From positions 372,001-436,000 of the forward strand of contig VANK01000001.1 of NCBI GenBank assembly GCA_008682415.1: a stretch of DNA of 64,000 bases, in the 5' to 3' direction. Positions 33,465-62,041 of the stretch are shown here, piece after piece. Made by a program: the position numbers and the translations under genes. This stretch comes from Acidobacteria bacterium AB60 (GTDB taxonomy: Bacteria; Acidobacteriota; Terriglobia; Terriglobales; Acidobacteriaceae). How positions within the stretch are numbered: the stretch's first letter is position 1; each line of letters starts with the position of its first letter. The notes beneath the pieces were generated by a model. That model searched no databases, was not told the origin of the DNA, and saw only the letters and a program-made list of their open reading frames with translations.

Positions 33465-34592
33465 ATGCCCGGCGACCGCACCGAACAGGCCACTCCGCAT
33501 CGCCGCGAGAAGGCGCGCAAAGAGGGCGATGTTCTGCACAGCCGCGAACTCACCGCCGCGGCAGGCACCCTGGCCGGTGTTCTCACCCTGACCTTCCTGG
33601 GCGCCCGGTTTCTGCTCGCATGGCGCACGGCATACGCCGGATTCCTTGAGCTCGGGCAGGCTTCGCGATGGGAGCCGGCCTCGCTCGGGTCCACACTCGC
33701 CGCTCTGCGCAGACTGGCTCTGGTCGCGCTCATGCCGGTGGGCGGAGTCATGGCGGCTGTGGCCGCCGGGGCTCTGGCCGTGGGAGTCGTTCAGACCGGC
33801 GGCCTCAGCCTCCACGCCGAGGCTGCGGGATTCCGATTCAGCCGCATCAATCCCCTGGCCAATGCCAAAAACCTCGTTTCGGTGCGAGGCTTGTCCCGGC
33901 TGGGCAAGTCGCTCATCCCGGCTGGCCTGCTGGCCGTCTTCGCCGTGCAGCGTGTCGCCCGCCAGCTCACCCTGCCGCCTTTTTCTGCGGAACGGCTGCA
34001 TGCCCTGGCCGCCGATCTTTGCGGTCTCCTGCAGGCGGCGGCCTGGCTTCTGTTCGCCTGGGCCCTGATCGACTATGCGGTGGAGTGGCAGGCCCGGGAG
34101 TCGCGGCTGCGCATGAGCAAGCAGGATGTGCGCGACGAGTTCAAGGAGACCGAAGGCTCGCCCCAGATTCGCAGCCGCATCCGCGGCCTGCAGCGGCAGA
34201 TGCGGCGCCGCCAGGTCAAGGCGGACGTAGGACGCGCCGCGGTCGTGTTGACCAACCCCACCCATTACGCCGTGGCCCTGGGCTTCGACTTCACCACCAT
34301 GGACGCTCCCAAGGTGCTCGCCAAAGGGCGCAACCTGCTGGCCGAAGAGATCAAAGCCGAGGCGCGCTGGGCAGGGGTGCCCATCGTCGAGAATCCGCCT
34401 CTGGCGCGCTCCCTCTACCGCTCCGTCGAGGTGGGCCGGTCCATTCCGGTCGACCTTTACGCCGCGGTCGCCGCCATCCTCGCCTACCTGTATCGCCAGC
34501 GGGTCGAGGCCGAGGTGCGGGAGCGCCGCCGTCGCGCCACCGCCGCGCGTCCTTCCCGCACTAACCCACCCGTTGCCGGAGCATCGCAATGA
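33465..34592 (+). CDS. flhB: Flagellar export switch protein FlhB
   Basis: A 375-aa protein with four N-terminal helices and a cytoplasmic domain. It keeps the self-cleavage motif NPTH at residues 264-267 (context VVLTNPTHYAVAL), so the rod/hook to filament specificity switch should work. The start has the usual DRTEQATPHRREKARKEGD stretch. Its stop overlaps the flhA start by four bases. Confidence 0.94.
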   Translation: MPGDRTEQATPHRREKARKEGDVLHSRELTAAAGTLAGVLTLTFLGARFLLAWRTAYAGFLELGQASRWEPASLGSTLAALRRLALVALMPVGGVMAAVAAGALAVGVVQTGGLSLHAEAAGFRFSRINPLANAKNLVSVRGLSRLGKSLIPAGLLAVFAVQRVARQLTLPPFSAERLHALAADLCGLLQAAAWLLFAWALIDYAVEWQARESRLRMSKQDVRDEFKETEGSPQIRSRIRGLQRQMRRRQVKADVGRAAVVLTNPTHYAVALGFDFTTMDAPKVLAKGRNLLAEEIKAEARWAGVPIVENPPLARSLYRSVEVGRSIPVDLYAAVAAILAYLYRQRVEAEVRERRRRATAARPSRTNPPVAGASQ

Positions 34593-36691
34593 GCACCGCT
34601 GTAGCCAACCCTGCGCCGCTGCGCCCCCTCGCCTTTCTGACCCGCTTCCGCGACTACGCTCTTCCCCTGGCTGCGATCAGCGTGATCTTCGTCATGCTGA
34701 TACCGCTCCCTGCCGCGGTTCTCGATCTGCTGCTCGCCCTCTCCATGGCCGCATCCATGGTGGTGTTTCTCTCCTCGGTCCAGATTCGCCGGGCGGTCGA
34801 GCTCAGTGTCTTTCCCACGCTGCTCCTGCTGCTTACGCTCTTCCGGCTCTCCCTCAATATCGCCTCCAGCCGGCGCATTCTTCTGCACGGCTCCGAGGGG
34901 ACCTCCGCGGCGGGCAAGGTCATCGAGGCCTTCGGCCAGTTCGTGGTGGGCGGCAACTATGTCGTGGGTTTTGTCCTGTTCCTGGCTCTCATCGCCATCC
35001 AGTTTCTGGTGGTCTCGCACGGCGCGGTGCGCACCGCCGAGGTCACCGCGCGCTTCACCCTCGACGCTCTTCCCGGCAAGCAGATGGCGATCGACGCCGA
35101 CATGAATGCCGGCCTCATCGACGAGGCGGAGGCGCGCCGCCGCCGCCAGGCCATCGCCCGGGAGGCCGAATTCTACGGAGCCATGGATGGCGCGGCCCGT
35201 TTCAACCAGCGCGACTCGCTGGCCACCATCCTTATTACCGCGATCAACATCATCGCCGGACTGCTGATCGGCACGCTGCAGCAGGGCGTCAATCTGAGCG
35301 AGGCCGTACGCACCTACACGGTGCTGACCGTGGGCGATGGCCTGGTCACGATGATCCCCTCACTGCTGGTCTCGGTCGCCGGCGGCATCACCCTCACCCG
35401 GGCCAATTCGGCGGGCCTCCTGGGCGGCGAGATTCGCCAGCAGCTCCTTGCCCGCCCCGCCACGCTCTACCTCGCCAGCATGGTCACGGGCGCCTTGTGC
35501 CTGATACCGGGCCTGCCCAAGTTTGCCTTTCTGCTGGTTTCGGCGGGACTCTTCCTCGGAGCACGCCGCGTGTCGGCCAGCGCCTCCACCCCCGCTTCCG
35601 GAGAGACGGCGCCCTCCTCATCGAAAAAGCCGGACCAGGCGCCCGCCGCCGAGATCGCTGCCATGATGCGGCTCGAGGACCTGACCCTGGAGATCGGCTT
35701 TCAGCTCATCCCCCTGGTGGACGAGAATCAGGGCGGTCAGTTGCTGAACCGGGTGCGCGCTCTGCGCCGGCACCTCTCCGCGGAGATGGGCTTCCTCATC
35801 CCCCCGATCCATATCTCGGACAACCTCCGGCTGAAGCCGCGGGAGTACGTCTTCTCCCTTCGGGGGCTTGAGATCGGCCGCTGGCAGACCGAGGGACCCC
35901 TGTTGCTGGCCGTCTCGGCCGATCCCAACCGCCGCCCGCTCCCCGGCCGGGAAACGCGGGAGCCCGCTTTTGGCGTCCCTGCCGTCTGGATCGCGCCCAA
36001 CCTCGAGGAGCAGGCCATCGCCTCCGGCTACTCGGTCGTGAATGCGGTTACGGTCATGACCACCCATCTCGGCGAACTGATTCGTCAGCACGCCGGGGAG
36101 CTGCTGGGCCGCGCCGAGATCAAGCGCCTCCTGGACGGCCTCAATGAGTCGCACCCCAAGCTGCTGGAGGAGCTGGTTCCCAAGCTGCTGACCCTGGGCG
36201 AGGTCGCACGGGTGCTGGAACAGCTTCTGCGCGAGCGCGTCTCCCTTCGCGATCTGGGCGCCATCCTGGAAGCTCTGCTGGAGACCGCACCGGTCAACAA
36301 GAGTACCGACGCGCTGGTCGAGGCGGCCCGCCAGGCGATGGGGAGGCGGCTGGTGCAGCCGCTGCTCGATGCCGACGGCCAGCTTCCCGTCCTTCTCCTC
36401 GATCCTCCCCTGGAGGAGGAGATTCATGCCACGGTCTCCCCCGAATCCGGCAGCCGCCTGCTCTCCGTGGCAGCCGCGCCCGCCACGCCCCTGGTGCGCC
36501 GCCTGGTCGATTCTTTGAAGCCGCTCATCTTTGCGGGAGCGCCAGCGGCCCCTCCCGTGCTCCTTTGCTCAAGTCCCGCCCGCTACCACGTGCGGCGGTG
36601 GCTGGAGCCGGTCTACCCCAGACTCTCCGTGGTCTCCGCCGCGGAGATTCCACCCGAGGTACGGCTCCGCCTGGTGGGAACGGTGCGTTGA
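34589..36691 (+). CDS. flhA: Flagellar export gate protein FlhA
   Basis: A 700-aa membrane protein with eight helices, the FHIPEP-type cytoplasmic loop (LDALPGKQMAIDADMNAG...RRRRQAIAREAEFYGAMDGA) and a large C-terminal export-docking domain. It uses the proton gradient and receives chaperone-substrate complexes. The usual partners flhF and flhG do not follow; fliA does, 42 bp downstream. Confidence 0.95.
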   Translation: MSTAVANPAPLRPLAFLTRFRDYALPLAAISVIFVMLIPLPAAVLDLLLALSMAASMVVFLSSVQIRRAVELSVFPTLLLLLTLFRLSLNIASSRRILLHGSEGTSAAGKVIEAFGQFVVGGNYVVGFVLFLALIAIQFLVVSHGAVRTAEVTARFTLDALPGKQMAIDADMNAGLIDEAEARRRRQAIAREAEFYGAMDGAARFNQRDSLATILITAINIIAGLLIGTLQQGVNLSEAVRTYTVLTVGDGLVTMIPSLLVSVAGGITLTRANSAGLLGGEIRQQLLARPATLYLASMVTGALCLIPGLPKFAFLLVSAGLFLGARRVSASASTPASGETAPSSSKKPDQAPAAEIAAMMRLEDLTLEIGFQLIPLVDENQGGQLLNRVRALRRHLSAEMGFLIPPIHISDNLRLKPREYVFSLRGLEIGRWQTEGPLLLAVSADPNRRPLPGRETREPAFGVPAVWIAPNLEEQAIASGYSVVNAVTVMTTHLGELIRQHAGELLGRAEIKRLLDGLNESHPKLLEELVPKLLTLGEVARVLEQLLRERVSLRDLGAILEALLETAPVNKSTDALVEAARQAMGRRLVQPLLDADGQLPVLLLDPPLEEEIHATVSPESGSRLLSVAAAPATPLVRRLVDSLKPLIFAGAPAAPPVLLCSSPARYHVRRWLEPVYPRLSVVSAAEIPPEVRLRLVGTVR

Positions 36692-36733
36692 AGCTGCATT
36701 CCGGAGATGGGGCGCGAGACGAGGGAGGAAGCG

Positions 36734-37573
36734 ATGTTGGAGATGGCGCAAGCAACCCAGGCAAGAACCCGAAGCCGGCGCCCGGCGCTGCCCGAGGTTT
36801 ATCCTCCCAGCGGGCTCCCCGGCGCCCTGACCGTCGAACAGGAGCGGGTGCTGCTCGAGCACCTGCCGGTGGTGCGTTTCCTGGCGCGGCGCATTCACGA
36901 GCGCCTGCCCCAGCACGTCGACATCGAAGACCTGATCTCGGCCGGCATTCTTGGCCTGATGGACGCCTTCGCCAAGTTCGACCCCGACAAGAACGTGCAG
37001 TTCCGCAGCTATGCGCAGTTCCGTATTCGCGGCGCCATCCTCGACAGCCTGCGCACCCTGGACTGGAGTCCGCGCGAACTGCGCCGCAAGGGCCGCGCGG
37101 TGGAGGAGGCGATCCGGGTGCTGACCGCCCGCCTGGGTCATCCTCCCGGAGAACCCGAGATCGCCGCCGAGCTGGGCCTGAGGCTGGAGGAGTACCAGCA
37201 GCTGCTCGGCGAGCTCAAAGGCCTCGAGATCGGCACGCTGCACACGGAGCACAACGACGACTCGGGAGATGAAGAGCTGGCCTACATCCCCGGACGTCCC
37301 GAAGATGATCCGCTCTTCCGGTGCCTGCGCGGAGAGATGGTAGACCGACTCGCCGAAGCCATCCAGGAGCTGCCCGATCGGGAGCGCCTGGTGATGACCC
37401 TCTACTACTACGAAGAGATGACCATGCGCGAGATTGGCCTGGCCATGGGAGTCGTCGAATCCCGCGTCTCCCAGGTGCATGCCTCGGCCGTGGTTCACCT
37501 TCGCGCGGCGCTTCGCGACCTGGCCACCGCCGCTGCCGCTGTTCCCACCGCGCGCCCGGGACGCCGCGCCTGA
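36734..37573 (+). CDS. fliA: Flagellar sigma factor FliA (sigma-28 family)
   Basis: A 279-aa sigma factor of the FliA/WhiG group. Region 2 is VRFLARRIHERLPQHVDIEDLISAGILGLMDAFAKFDPDK...QFRSYAQFRIRGAILDSLRTLDW. Region 4 is LPDRERLVMTLYYYEEMTMREIGLAMGVVESRVSQVHASA. I prefer the ATG at 36734, which has a strong GGGAGGA site, over the one at 36707. It should direct late flagellar genes. Its expected anti-sigma factor flgM at 45643 is frameshifted here. Confidence 0.93.
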   Translation: MLEMAQATQARTRSRRPALPEVYPPSGLPGALTVEQERVLLEHLPVVRFLARRIHERLPQHVDIEDLISAGILGLMDAFAKFDPDKNVQFRSYAQFRIRGAILDSLRTLDWSPRELRRKGRAVEEAIRVLTARLGHPPGEPEIAAELGLRLEEYQQLLGELKGLEIGTLHTEHNDDSGDEELAYIPGRPEDDPLFRCLRGEMVDRLAEAIQELPDRERLVMTLYYYEEMTMREIGLAMGVVESRVSQVHASAVVHLRAALRDLATAAAAVPTARPGRRA

Positions 37574-37590: not shown

Positions 37591-38550
37591 ATGGACAAGA
37601 AACTTCGCCAGGAAGAGATCGACGCCCTCTTTGAGACAGCGCGCGCCGGGTCTCCCTCCGCGCCCGCCGCAGAGCACGCCGCCTCCGCGCCGTACAGCTT
37701 CACCTCCTCGGGACAGATCTCCACCGAGCAGCTGCACGCCATCAGCATTCTGAACGACCTCTTTGCCCGCAATCTGACCCATAACCTGGCCGCGTCGCTG
37801 CGCTCCCGCTTCGAGGTCAACCTGGTCTCCGCCGAACAGATTCCGTTCAGCGAATTCCTGCTGCGCATTCCCGAGGTTAGTTACGTCGCCTCGGTGCGCC
37901 TGGAACCGCTCGGCGCGCTGTCCGTGCTGCAGCTGGAGATGTCACTCGCCCCGCCCATCATCGACCTGCTGCTGGGCGGCGATGGCAGAGAGGGGCCGCT
38001 GCGCGAGCTCACCGACATCGAGGAGTCCATCCTCGGCTCGGTGGTCGAGCTCGTCTGCCGCGAGCTCACCAGCGCGTGGCACCAGGTGGGCCTCTCCTTC
38101 ACCTTCGAACGGCGCCAGATGCAGACCCAGGTGGCGCGCATGATGAGCGTGACGGAGAAGTCACTCTGCCTGAGCTTCGAGATCCGCATGCCGCAGAGCG
38201 CAGGCTTGCTCAATCTCGCCTTTCCCGCCGTAGTCTCCAACACCATCCTCCGCCGGCTCACGTCAGACTGGGCCCGGGGCCGGAGCCACGGGCCGGAGAT
38301 GCGCGCCCGTATGGAGGCTGCCGCCCGCGGCATTCGCTTTGGGGCATCGCTGCAGCTGCCCAGCGTGCGCGTGCCCGCTCGCACACTGCAGCAGCTCTCC
38401 CCCGGCCAGGTCGTCTGTCTCGATCTGCCGGCGGCCACCGCTCCGCTGTGGTGTGTCGGGGGACAGCCTCTGGCCACCGCCCAGCCGGTGATCCAGGGAG
38501 AACGCCGCTCCGCCCGCCTCGAAAGATATCTTCCGGGAGGTAAGCCATGA
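37591..38550 (+). CDS. fliM: Flagellar motor switch protein FliM
   Basis: A 319-aa C-ring protein. The N-terminal CheY-P-binding motif LRQEEIDALFETA is intact, followed by a CheC-like middle domain (SILNDLFARNLTHNLAASLRSRFEV, SLAPPIIDLLLGGDGREG) and a C-terminal SpoA domain. Its stop overlaps the next ATG by four bases. It connects chemotaxis signalling to rotor direction. Confidence 0.94.
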   Translation: MDKKLRQEEIDALFETARAGSPSAPAAEHAASAPYSFTSSGQISTEQLHAISILNDLFARNLTHNLAASLRSRFEVNLVSAEQIPFSEFLLRIPEVSYVASVRLEPLGALSVLQLEMSLAPPIIDLLLGGDGREGPLRELTDIEESILGSVVELVCRELTSAWHQVGLSFTFERRQMQTQVARMMSVTEKSLCLSFEIRMPQSAGLLNLAFPAVVSNTILRRLTSDWARGRSHGPEMRARMEAAARGIRFGASLQLPSVRVPARTLQQLSPGQVVCLDLPAATAPLWCVGGQPLATAQPVIQGERRSARLERYLPGGKP

Positions 38551-39257
38551 GCCCGTACAGCGCGTGCTGGATCGATGCCGCCCGCGCCCTCTTTTCTCAA
38601 GCCCTGGCCGGGGAGCCGCAACTGGTCGAATCGCCCGCCGCCGCCCTCTCCGGAGAAGTCTTCGGCTTCATTGCCCGGTTTCGGGGGGACGCGAGCGGAG
38701 ACTTCACGGTTGTTCTCGACCGCACCGTCCTCGACAGCCCCCTTCTCGGGGAGGGCGCCGACCAGAAGCTTGCCTGGAGCGACTTGCTGCGCGAGGTGGC
38801 CGAGGCCGCGGCCGGCGACGCTCTGGCCCGCAGCGGCCTCAAGGTCCGGATGGAGGCCTTTGAGGATACGACTGCGCTCCCAGCCGGGGGACGCACCTTC
38901 CTGCTCCAGACGCCGGAGCGCGCCTGGACGATGCGCGTCCACGACGGACTGGAGACCGAAAAGAAGGCTGAAGAAACGCCGGCTCCCGCGTCCGGACTCG
39001 ATCTGCTGCTTGACATCGAGCTCGAAGCGACCTTGCGTTTCGGGTGTCGCGAGCTGCCCCTCGGCGATGTGCTCGAACTCGGGCCCGGCGACGTTGTGCA
39101 GCTGGACCGCACCATCCACGATCCGGTCGACCTCGTCGTCGGCGACAAGATTGTCGCCCGGGGCGAAGTCGTCCTCGTCAACGGCAGCTTCGGCCTGCGC
39201 GTCACCGAGGTCGCCGCTCCCCGCAAGCGCCTGGAGAGTGTCCGATGTCTGTTTTGA
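38547..39257 (+). CDS. Second FliN-type switch protein with extra N-terminal domain
   Basis: A 236-aa protein. Residues about 1-130 form an alpha/beta domain vaguely like the CheC/FliY phosphatase fold (GEVFGFIARFRGDASGDFTVVLD, WSDLLREVAEAAAGDALARSG) but without a clear E-x2-N signature. Residues 150-236 are a SpoA/FliN domain (LLLDIELEATLRFGCRELPLGDVLELGPGDVVQLDR). It is coupled to fliM by an ATGA overlap, so it is the likely C-ring FliN, perhaps a FliY-like variant. It overlaps the following gene by 13 bases. Confidence 0.82.
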   Translation: MSPYSACWIDAARALFSQALAGEPQLVESPAAALSGEVFGFIARFRGDASGDFTVVLDRTVLDSPLLGEGADQKLAWSDLLREVAEAAAGDALARSGLKVRMEAFEDTTALPAGGRTFLLQTPERAWTMRVHDGLETEKKAEETPAPASGLDLLLDIELEATLRFGCRELPLGDVLELGPGDVVQLDRTIHDPVDLVVGDKIVARGEVVLVNGSFGLRVTEVAAPRKRLESVRCLF

Positions 39258-40174
39258 TCCGCCGCATCCCCGCCCAAGGAATCAGTCCGCTCTCCTCCCC
39301 GGCTCCTCGGGGAACGATCCTGCCTCCGTATCCGCAGCGTGCCGTGCGGGGCAGCCTGTTCGAAACCTGTTCGAATCCAGGATGCGCCTCCGGCTGGCTC
39401 CATCTCTGGCGCAGCCGCACGGCTCCCTTCGTCGAAGGCGGCTGGACCTGCTCCGCCGCGTGTACCGCCCAGAGGCTGCAGGCCGCCGTGGCGCGGGAGC
39501 TCGATGGCCGCGGAGGCATCGTCGAGACGCACCGTCATCGCGTGCCGCTGGGGTTGCTGATGCTTGAGCACGGGTGGATTACGGCCGCCCAGCTCCGCGG
39601 CGCCCTGGCCAGCCAGCGGGAGCAGGGATCGGGACGGCTGGGTCAGTGGCTGGTCGCCCGCGAAGGAGTGCCCGAGCGCCTGGTCACCCGCGCTCTCGGC
39701 CTCCAGTGGAGCTGTCCGGTGCTCCCCCTAGAGGCTCACGATCCGGAGGGCCTGGCGCCGCTTCTGCCGCGTCTCTTTCTCGACGCCTTCGGCGCGCTGC
39801 CTCTGCGCGTGGCCGCGGGCCGTCTCGTCTATCTTGGCTTTGAAGATCGTCTGGATCCCGTTCTCGCCCTCGCTCTCGAGCGCATCTCGGGGCTGCGCGT
39901 GGAGAGCGGACTGGTCCAGGGTTCTCTGTTTCAGCCCGCGCACGCCCGCATGCTCCAGTGCGACTTCCCGCCGGTGGAGCTGCTGGAGGCCGCCTCCGCG
40001 CCGGCTCTCGTCACGGCCCTGACCCGCAGGATCGAGCGGATGCGGCCCCTCGATACCCGCATGGTCCGCGTCCATGACTGTCTCTGGGTCCGCCTCTGGA
40101 CGGCGCCGCAGAATGGCCCGGTTCCGGATCGCGCCGCGGTCCAGGACATTCTCTGCACCATCGCCTCCCAGTAG
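39245..40174 (+). CDS. Zinc-finger plus MshEN-like domain protein in the flagellar switch operon
   Basis: A 309-aa soluble protein of unassigned function. Four cysteines (Cys42, Cys47, Cys69, Cys73) form a plausible zinc site. From about residue 101 to 165 it carries the repeated L-G-x2-L...L-x3-L-x2-Q pattern of the GspE/MshE N-terminal (MshEN) domain: PLGLLMLEHGWITAAQLRGAL, then RLGQWLVAREGV. Some MshEN domains bind cyclic di-GMP. The rest (170-309) is alpha/beta, and no ATPase domain follows. It starts inside the 3' end of the second FliN gene and precedes a CheY gene. A c-di-GMP input to the switch is therefore a reasonable but untested inference. Confidence 0.65.
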   Translation: MSVLIRRIPAQGISPLSSPAPRGTILPPYPQRAVRGSLFETCSNPGCASGWLHLWRSRTAPFVEGGWTCSAACTAQRLQAAVARELDGRGGIVETHRHRVPLGLLMLEHGWITAAQLRGALASQREQGSGRLGQWLVAREGVPERLVTRALGLQWSCPVLPLEAHDPEGLAPLLPRLFLDAFGALPLRVAAGRLVYLGFEDRLDPVLALALERISGLRVESGLVQGSLFQPAHARMLQCDFPPVELLEAASAPALVTALTRRIERMRPLDTRMVRVHDCLWVRLWTAPQNGPVPDRAAVQDILCTIASQ

Positions 40175-40223: not shown

Positions 40224-40604
40224 ATGCGAGAAATCACCACCCTGATCGTCGACGACTCCTCCGTGATGCGGAAGATCATCGAACGCTCTCTACGCCAGGC
40301 CGGATTGGAGGCCCTGGTCGTGCACGAAGCCGGCAATGGCCACGAGGGCCTCAAGGTCCTCGCCGCTCACTCCGTGGACCTGATCCTCTCCGACATCAAC
40401 ATGCCCGCCATGGACGGCCTCGAATTCCTGCGCCAGATCCTCGCCCGCAACCTCGCGCCCGGGGTGCCGGTCATCATGATCAGCACCGAATCCAGTGAGG
40501 AGCACGTCAAGCAGGCGATCGCCGCCGGGGCGCGCGGCTATATTCGCAAGCCCTTTACCGCCGAGCAGGTCAAGCAACGCGTGCTTTCTCTGATCGACGC
40601 CTGA
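40224..40604 (+). CDS. cheY: CheY-like single-domain response regulator
   Basis: A 126-aa receiver domain with no output domain. The acidic pair is in LIVDDSSVMRKI, the phospho-acceptor Asp in LILSDINMPAMDG, the conserved Ser in IMISTESS and the Lys in GYIRKPF. It likely binds FliM or the switch when phosphorylated. No cheA is in the window, so the kinase is encoded elsewhere. The next gene is a CheX-like phosphatase. Confidence 0.88.
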   Translation: MREITTLIVDDSSVMRKIIERSLRQAGLEALVVHEAGNGHEGLKVLAAHSVDLILSDINMPAMDGLEFLRQILARNLAPGVPVIMISTESSEEHVKQAIAAGARGYIRKPFTAEQVKQRVLSLIDA

Positions 40605-40672: not shown

Positions 40673-41155
40673 ATGACCACACTGCGCCTCGACGCCTCCC
40701 TCATCTCCAACGCGGCCCGCCTTGACGCTAGTGTCGATGAGGTCTTCCAGCTGATGGTGGGCGTGCGCTGCCGTCCCGGCGCGCCTCCCGCGGAGACCGC
40801 GGCCGACAGCGTGACAGCCATGGTTGGCTTCGGCGGAGCTCTCACCGGAGCCTGCGTTCTCTCCTGCCCCCCGGATACGGCCCGTGCCATCGCCGCCCGC
40901 ATGACCGGCACGCACTTCGCCGTCCTCGACGACACCGTCCGCGACGCAATGGGCGAAGTCTGCAACATGATCGCCGGGACATGGAAGGGGAACGTGCCCG
41001 AGCTCGCATCCGCGTGCGAACTCTCGGTCCCCGCGGTCATCACCGGACGCGACTACCAGCTTCGCGTGCAGGAACCCAGGTTTACCGTCCGCCGGGCCTA
41101 CCGCTTCGCGGAGAGCTTCTTCCTGGTGACCCTCCTCTGCGACGACCTGCGCTAG
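40673..41155 (+). CDS. cheX: CheX/CheC-family CheY-P phosphatase-like protein
   Basis: A 160-aa protein with a CheX fold pattern. It keeps the active E-x2-N signature in DAMGEVCNMIAGTWKG near residue 91-94. Such proteins dephosphorylate CheY-P. It is 68 bp downstream of the cheY-like gene, so the pair probably sets signal decay. The rest of the chemotaxis system is not in the window. Confidence 0.78.
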   Translation: MTTLRLDASLISNAARLDASVDEVFQLMVGVRCRPGAPPAETAADSVTAMVGFGGALTGACVLSCPPDTARAIAARMTGTHFAVLDDTVRDAMGEVCNMIAGTWKGNVPELASACELSVPAVITGRDYQLRVQEPRFTVRRAYRFAESFFLVTLLCDDLR

Positions 41156-60718: not shown

Positions 60719-62041
60719 TCACTGCACCATCCGTAACCCCGAGCGCGGCTCCACCGCCAGAACCTCGTCACAGCGGAACGCCTCATCCCCCTCGCGCGCA
60801 TTCGAGCGCTTGTTCTCATACATCCGCATATCCGCCGTGATGCTCAACGACTCCACGTCGCCCGCATCCTCCGGGAACAACGCAATGCCCAGGCTGCCGC
60901 CCACGCGGATCGTGCGGTTCTTCAGCACCATCGGTTCGTTCAGCAGCTTCAGCAGGTCCTCGCCCACATGCATCGCCTCGTCCCGGCTGATCGGCGACTC
61001 CAGGATCACCGCGAACTCGTCGCCGCCCGTCCGCGCCACCGTGTCCGAGCGCCGTACCCGGCCGCTGAACATCCGCGCCACGTTCTGCAGCAACAGATCG
61101 CCCGCGTGATGCCCCAGCGTGTCATTCACCTGCTTGAAATGATCCAGGTCCATCATCAGCAATGCCGTCTGCGCCCGCGTGCGCCGCGCCCGCTCCACCG
61201 CGCTCGCCAACCGGTCCTGGAACAGCCGCCGGTTCGGCAGCCCCGTCAGATCGTCATGCAGCGCCAGGTGCTTGGTATGCGCAATCTGATCCTCCAGCAG
61301 CAGCAGGATCATCCCGACTGCCACCACGTACTTCGGCAGATTCCAAACCTCGCTCTCCAGGTGCACGCCGGGAAAGAAGGCCATCATCAGCGGGCCCACC
61401 ACAAACACCGACGCCCAGAGAAAGAATCCGATAATCGAGATCAGCGCGCCCGCCGTCGCCCGGCGGTACATGTAGGCAAAGTGCACCGCGCAGCTCAGGT
61501 ACACCGTAAATAGCGTCGCGTTCAGCGCAACTCCCGCGCCGTCTGGTCGGTTCTGCACCACCAGCAGCACCACGCCCAGCGCGGCAGTCAAAATTGCCGT
61601 GAACCAGCGCAGCAGGTGATTGAACCGCCGCACATAGGCAAACGCCACCGCCAGCGGCCCGATCCCCAGCAGTGCAGCCGCCGCGTTCAGAACCCAACCC
61701 GGCGCCTCCAGCATTAGCGCGGCAACATACACCGTGTAGCCCGCCAGCAGCACCCAGAGCATCAGGCGGCTCGAGTGTTCACCCTTGTACGGAACCGAGG
61801 CCCGCGTAAACAACAGGCCCGCTAACACCAGCGCCAGCACTTCGGCGGTGTCCGCCCACTCGCCCAGCTTGCCCGGCCCGTTCACGAAGATCAGAAACGT
61901 GAAGTGGATGACGATCAGCACCCAGCCCGTCATCCAGTGCGCCGAAACCGGCGCATAGCTCCGGCGCGCCACCGACGCGAAACCCCACGCCAGCAGCCCT
62001 ACCGCCAGTACGTCCGGGAGCTTGCTCCAATCCACCTGCAC
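60719..62041 (-). CDS. Membrane-bound diguanylate cyclase
   Basis: A 440-aa protein with about eight N-terminal membrane helices (residues 10-250) as a sensory part and a C-terminal GGDEF domain. The active site is RTGGDEF (339-343), DDLTGLPNR precedes it near 263-271, and MDLDHFKQVND binds metal. An RxxD inhibitory site (Arg330-Asp333) lies exactly five residues before GGDEF, so product inhibition by cyclic di-GMP is expected. No EAL domain is seen. It may feed motility and exopolysaccharide control, both encoded in this window. Confidence 0.9.
   Translation of the reverse strand: MQVDWSKLPDVLAVGLLAWGFASVARRSYAPVSAHWMTGWVLIVIHFTFLIFVNGPGKLGEWADTAEVLALVLAGLLFTRASVPYKGEHSSRLMLWVLLAGYTVYVAALMLEAPGWVLNAAAALLGIGPLAVAFAYVRRFNHLLRWFTAILTAALGVVLLVVQNRPDGAGVALNATLFTVYLSCAVHFAYMYRRATAGALISIIGFFLWASVFVVGPLMMAFFPGVHLESEVWNLPKYVVAVGMILLLLEDQIAHTKHLALHDDLTGLPNRRLFQDRLASAVERARRTRAQTALLMMDLDHFKQVNDTLGHHAGDLLLQNVARMFSGRVRRSDTVARTGGDEFAVILESPISRDEAMHVGEDLLKLLNEPMVLKNRTIRVGGSLGIALFPEDAGDVESLSITADMRMYENKRSNAREGDEAFRCDEVLAVEPRSGLRMVQ

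Follow-up and report, generated by a model that had tools for sequence, protein, structure and literature searches.

A stand-alone MshEN-type protein encoded beside fliN in Acidobacteriota, a candidate c-di-GMP receptor for the flagellar motor

Described c-di-GMP effectors and the ZMsh locus

The closest described relatives of the protein considered here are the ATPases MshE, PilF and PilB, which have in common with it the MshEN (GSPII) fold and a tandem 24-residue core. NfrB, a c-di-GMP-activated glycosyltransferase, resembles it in carrying an MshEN domain without a secretion ATPase. At the flagellar switch, the Cle proteins of Caulobacter are CheY-like c-di-GMP effectors with a receiver-domain fold and FliM as their partner. 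The PilZ-type brake YcgR is a c-di-GMP effector of the flagellar motor, as stated in an excerpt of PMC9303241. A literature search by title and start of abstract, with most subscription journals outside its scope, returned no MshEN protein tied to the flagellar switch.

We analysed a stretch of 64,000 nucleotides (the window) from Acidobacteria bacterium AB60 (contig VANK01000001.1, positions 372,001 to 436,000), in which a 309-aa protein, here called ZMsh, is encoded among flagellar and chemotaxis genes. Its open reading frame starts with the ATG at 39245, ends with a stop codon at 40174 and overlaps the 3' end of fliN by 13 bp. A cheY-like gene and then cheX lie downstream, so that the layout proposed by an earlier sequence-only reading of this DNA, a start inside fliN followed by cheY and cheX, was borne out with Pfam-identified neighbours. 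The genes are as follows.

34589-36691, upstream of ZMsh: flhA, named by eye from sequence
36707-37573, upstream of ZMsh: flagellar-type sigma factor, named by eye from sequence
37591-38550, plus strand: fliM (Pfam FliM, E 3.4e-37)
38547-39257, plus strand: fliN, 236 aa (Pfam FliMN_C, E 1.2e-21)
39245-40174, plus strand: ZMsh (name coined here), 309 aa, a four-cysteine (Cys4) knot, an MshEN domain and a C-terminal module
40224-40604, plus strand: cheY-like single-domain response regulator (Pfam Response_reg, E 3e-31)
40673-41155, plus strand: cheX (Pfam CheX, E 5.1e-20)

The FliN protein of the window is unusually long at 236 aa, and its FliMN_C match is confined to aa 153-222. A CheX-like or FliM-like domain in its N-terminal 150 aa (window 38547-38990) was considered and rejected, as hhalign gave probabilities of 0.2 and 0.1, respectively, and no likeness.

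ZMsh aligned with the PilB-type ATPases of the phylum at a profile alignment probability of 99.8. Unlike MshE, PilF and PilB, however, it lacks an ATPase domain, carries an N-terminal Cys4 knot, has a fixed flagellar position and, in the group of the window, shows Pro at position 1 of motif I. The NfrB model was matched locally by 68/68 ZMsh sequences (aa 94-224 in the window protein), whereas ZMsh has no glycosyltransferase and belongs to a flagellar rather than a glycan locus. Its likeness to YcgR lies only in the proposed job, that of a c-di-GMP effector of the motor, since ZMsh has no PilZ domain and its fold is unrelated. With the Cle proteins it would share the proposed place of a c-di-GMP effector at the switch, but fold and FliM partner differ. 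Judged by its domains, the whole protein is neither a secretion ATPase (no ATPase domain) nor a YcgR-type brake (no PilZ).

Domain architecture of ZMsh

The following parts of ZMsh were delimited.

39368-39463, plus strand: four-cysteine knot, aa 42-73 (C42, C47, C69, C73)
39545-39616, plus strand: MshEN motif I, aa 101-124, with Pro at position 1
39635-39706, plus strand: MshEN motif II, aa 131-154
39707-39961, plus strand: C-terminal subdomain of the MshEN domain, aa 155-239 (Pfam MshEN match 157-224, structural match up to aa 239)
39962-40171, plus strand: C-terminal module, aa 240-309, about 70 residues, in which W281 is invariant and R283 almost invariant

An AlphaFold2 model of ZMsh built on a 68-row alignment had a mean pLDDT of 88.5 and a pTM of 0.84, with low confidence at the N-terminal start. 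Foldseek searches with this model gave 19 matches at E<=0.001, all of them MshEN/GSPII-type domains from the ATPases of pili or secretion systems. The top match was the c-di-GMP-bound GSPII-B domain of PilF (E 2.4e-9; Z up to 12.2 over 135 residues, 3.2 Å), and MshE with c-di-GMP was also found (E 6.8e-8; Z 11.4 over 135 residues, 3.3 Å); the matching part of the model spans aa 98-239. Sequence searches agreed, with PilF found at 1.6e-13 from ZMsh alone and PilF and MshE at 1.5e-28 and 5.9e-12 from a 21-row ZMsh profile. Pfam searches of the window protein detected no ATPase family at E<=10, no match to PilZ, PilZN or PilZNR and no DNA-binding family, and no ATPase family was found in 10 ZMsh relatives at E<=1. 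The sequence-only reading had suggested an MshEN pattern without an ATPase and had named structure prediction as a check; the predicted fold is indeed that of MshEN, which combines a four-helix with an alpha/beta subdomain (Z 12.2 and 11.4), and both parts of that suggestion are retained.

Measured against the published motif and the score thresholds, the window protein is a borderline MshEN member. It scored 17.1 bits against the Pfam MshEN model, below the cut-off of 23.1 that 8/10 relatives passed, and 37.1 bits (cut-off 38; E 2e-9, aa 101-152) against the NCBIfam model c-di-GMP_motif NF053729, which matched 68/68 aligned sequences at E<=0.01. The published relaxed 24-mer was matched once in the window protein, at motif I; motif II deviates from it at positions 10-11, and the two motifs are spaced by six residues instead of five. 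Of 88 sequences, 62 contain this 24-mer one or more times and only 3 contain it twice. A tandem motif core (positions 1, 2, 3, 6, 17, 21 and 24 twice, with a spacer of 4-8), a pattern composed after the alignment had been viewed, was present in 84/88 relatives and in 0/88,000 shuffles. As modelled, the central domain of ZMsh has the MshEN fold and keeps most of the motif.

Conservation within the family was examined at the positions of the two motifs. G103, Q124, G133 and Q154 are invariant in the 68 aligned ZMsh sequences, and position 131 holds R or K in 67 of them. Among 20 further relatives, 16 of which belong to other families, G103, G133 and Q154 were found in all 20 and Q124 in 19. At position 1 of motif I, P101 replaces the usual first Arg in 68/68 aligned sequences; the 4 further relatives that belong to the window's family have P, and the 16 from other families have R (9), K (4), L (2) or T (1), a spread that fits the R/K/L to which this position was widened in the part of PMC11731258 used here. 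Pro at position 1 is permitted by the relaxed search motif quoted in an extract of PMC5013675, and PMC11731258, in the same part, describes it in one of the three motifs of PilF GSPII-C, a domain credited with weaker binding (KD ~0.46 uM). For a repaired domain, a section of PMC12002112 reports that both Gln and the first Arg of motif II were necessary and that Gly was needed for high affinity; all of the residues named in that section (the Gln pair, the motif II Arg and Gly) are retained in ZMsh.

The cysteines C42, C47, C69 and C73 are invariant in 68/68 aligned sequences, window protein included, and Cys fills all four knot columns in 19/20 further relatives; in the L171 protein the first Cys spacing is missing. 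The knot, which faintly resembles PHD-type fingers (YNG1, E 0.0018), is probably a metal (zinc) site. The earlier proposal of a four-cysteine zinc site is thereby upheld for the conserved Cys4 set, and zinc is the metal that we infer.

Foldseek returned nothing at E<=0.001 for a separate model of the C-terminal module (pLDDT 92.8), and the highest Z was 6.0, against BsmI; this absence of matches does not establish a new fold. Whole-protein profile alignments placed the module collinear with the N2 domain of PilB/GspE at overall probabilities of 99.4 and 99.8, values carried by MshEN. Its interpretation as a relic of N2 was rejected, as the probability was 0.2 when the module was aligned alone.

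Linkage to fliN and distribution

A genome-wide scan of an 84,980-species collection with one tight peptide pattern yielded 71 loci, all under Acidobacteriota names, with room left by the tight pattern for relatives in other phyla. Terracidiphilus gabretensis S55 (L086) and Occallatibacter savannae AB23 (L115) are among the named carriers. fliN lies upstream of ZMsh in 69 of the 71 loci, and the other two start at contig ends. With the starts as chosen, 54 of 67 complete genes show the same 13-bp overlap with fliN as the window. The alignment of the scan loci (A2) omits four of them, L071 and L106 (contig starts, without fliN) and L101 and L113 (truncated genes). The recognised order flhA, sigma factor, fliM, fliN, ZMsh was seen in all of the first 20 loci inspected.

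The inspection was extended to 25 further loci, 19 from other families and 6 from the window's family, and in 24 of them fliN was the nearest recognised same-strand upstream gene at gaps of up to about 2 kb, within which unrecognised genes may intervene given that only nine other flagellar or chemotaxis profiles were sought. L170, L207, L253 and L254 are uninformative as to the fliN slot, L168 lacks every gene that was looked for, and L167 breaks off 443 bases past fliN. Counts of ZMsh in other families refer to the matches listed, and weaker stand-alone copies may be missed. One other-family locus has an HDOD-looking gene (named by eye) between fliN and ZMsh (L153:1616-2497). The one exception among the 25 is L163 (G305:C87), where a Cys4-bearing ZMsh-type protein is encoded away from flagellar genes; the fliM-fliN locus of that genome (L206) is without ZMsh.

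Four genomes from the family of the window (G259, G267, G298 and G338) have fliM at a long distance from ZMsh or on a different contig; in each of them the gene order at ZMsh is flhA, sigma factor, fliN, ZMsh, without fliM.

fliN-ZMsh loci of these four genomes: L219, L221, L258, L259
fliM loci of these four genomes: L220, L222, L260, L261

In the remaining 31 genomes of the family with ZMsh, 1.2 to 2.7 kb separate its match from that of fliM. Because the four genomes with fliM elsewhere keep fliN and ZMsh together, the constant neighbour of ZMsh is fliN, not fliM. The relocated fliM is divergent to a second fliN in L220 and L260 and to cheX and fliN in L222. The window genome itself has a second flagellar cluster (L051, G000:C11:28000-43000) that contains further copies of flhA, the sigma factor gene, fliM and fliN together with a ZMsh paralogue; this paralogue is 26% identical to ZMsh and passes the Pfam MshEN cut-off with 25.1 bits.

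We then compared the presence of ZMsh with that of fliM. Within the genus of the window, ZMsh was found in 23/23 fliM-bearing genomes and in 1/12 without a fliM match (Fisher p 2.9e-8, related genomes not being independent); the exception, G018, has ZMsh near a contig end, where fliM could be cut off. In the phylum sample of the window's family, where ZMsh was scored as present at E<1e-50, the counts were 35/37 and 0/7 (p 9.4e-7). Five of the seven genomes without fliM have weaker matches of 1e-14 to 1e-17, in the range of many ATPase hits, and ZMsh is missing from the fliM-fliN loci of the two fliM-bearing exceptions, G188 and G306. Altogether, ZMsh was absent from 29 inspected fliM-fliN loci, most of them in other families and two in the window's family; therefore, it is an accessory and not a core or general part of the switch. 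Absence of the gene from other fliM-fliN loci, an outcome that the sequence-only reading had named as refuting its idea, did not occur: the gene recurs in many genomes, with fliN rather than fliM as its fixed partner and without being present at every fliM-fliN locus.

The c-di-GMP context was examined in the window and its genome.

60719-62041, minus strand: diguanylate cyclase (GGDEF) open reading frame, 441 aa, about 20 kb from ZMsh
about 60800-61264 (C11:432800-433264), minus strand: GGDEF domain

A diguanylate cyclase, which the sequence-only reading had brought forward in favour of a c-di-GMP sensor, is present in the window, but we dropped it as support, since the genome has 26 GGDEF domains in all. 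The genome also encodes 7 PilZ domains, which could serve the motor. Neither of the YcgR N-terminal domains, PilZN and PilZNR, was detected in the window genome by searches that recovered their controls (B. subtilis and Thermotoga; E. coli), and they were found in 0/37 fliM-bearing genomes of the window's family. Across the phylum sample, PilZNR occurred in 15/396 genomes and PilZN in 1/396; G171, G253, G315 and G331 have a ZMsh-type match together with PilZNR, among the matches listed. A phylum-wide exchange between ZMsh and YcgR is not supported, as these four genomes have both and most flagellated genomes that lack ZMsh have neither. Only the narrower statement holds, that the fliM-bearing genomes of the window's family are without either type of YcgR N-domain (0/37).

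Proposed role and alternatives

Our proposal starts from the computed gene with its invariant cysteines, MshEN fold, conserved ligand-contact positions, missing ATPase and a position beside fliN that is kept when fliM leaves. ZMsh would be a stand-alone receptor, kin to the N-terminal regulatory domain (MshEN) of the ATPases that serve type IV pili and type II secretion, and would hold one c-di-GMP between the two 24-residue motifs. It would be made in step with FliN and dock on FliN in the C-ring, and c-di-GMP loading would alter this contact so that the motor is slowed, locked or biased, which is the job of the PilZ brake YcgR elsewhere. The parts of this proposal differ in strength. It is likely that ZMsh binds c-di-GMP, and FliN or the C-ring, linked to ZMsh genetically through fliN, is moderately favoured as its partner; given both, it is an evenly balanced call whether ZMsh acts on rotation or instead on assembly or export. 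Taken as a whole, modulation of the motor by a c-di-GMP receptor docked on FliN is a tentative reading, slightly short of even. In its favour we also count the co-occurrence of ZMsh with fliM, the 26 GGDEF domains of the genome and the missing YcgR N-domains. Against it weigh the two full published motifs in only 3/88 sequences, the Pfam and NCBIfam scores of the window protein below threshold, the 29 fliM-fliN loci that lack ZMsh, the missing exchange with YcgR across the phylum, the 7 PilZ domains and the L163 copy away from fliN. From the earlier idea of a switch-linked c-di-GMP sensor of new architecture we keep the MshEN fold and the link to the switch through fliN, and we give up a bond to fliM and a general place in the switch.

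The fixed neighbourhood of fliN can also be read in terms of flagellar assembly or type III export, with ZMsh binding c-di-GMP and gating, for example, C-ring formation or the docking of the export ATPase complex on FliN. FliN also serves export, flhA lies upstream in the same cluster and relatives of ZMsh regulate secretion ATPases. However, ZMsh is not universal in flagellated relatives, so it is not needed for assembly in general, and we consider this role unlikely. It is rather improbable, in our judgment, that ZMsh is a docking or assembly part whose MshEN fold serves as a protein-interaction platform after nucleotide binding was lost. MshEN-type domains can lose binding, as PilF GSPII-A does in the section of PMC12002112 used here, and they can serve docking, with PilB-PilZ complex structures among the Foldseek matches; the Pro at position 1 of motif I, the departures in motif II and the two full published motifs in only 3/88 sequences point the same way. 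Against this, the Gly and Gln contacts hardly vary over the family, a constraint that a dead site could do without, and 15/16 other-family relatives have R, K or L as the first residue of motif I.

The CheY-like gene present in 58/71 scan loci, together with the faint PHD-likeness of the knot, would suit a regulator of chemotaxis (with CheY/CheX) or of gene expression (via the cysteine knot) that sits in the operon by chance. Yet cheY and cheX do not adjoin ZMsh in L046-L050, in L051 or in most other-family loci, whereas fliN does adjoin it in L046-L051, and the window protein has no DNA-binding Pfam family, which leaves such a regulator very improbable.

Returning to the receptor that docks on FliN, a broader statement would be that a c-di-GMP module of the pilus/secretion-ATPase type became a dedicated FliN partner in a large part of the Acidobacteriota, giving direct control of the switch without PilZ or YcgR; we regard this as possible but more doubtful than the docking receptor itself. 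The best-known c-di-GMP motor brakes are PilZ proteins, and if our reading of ZMsh is true, another domain, unrelated to PilZ, performs a comparable task. Such control would then operate in abundant, little-studied soil bacteria, and the MshEN domain would have a role beyond pili, secretion and glycan synthesis. ZMsh may thus be a route by which the c-di-GMP signal reaches the flagellar motor in many soil Acidobacteriota.
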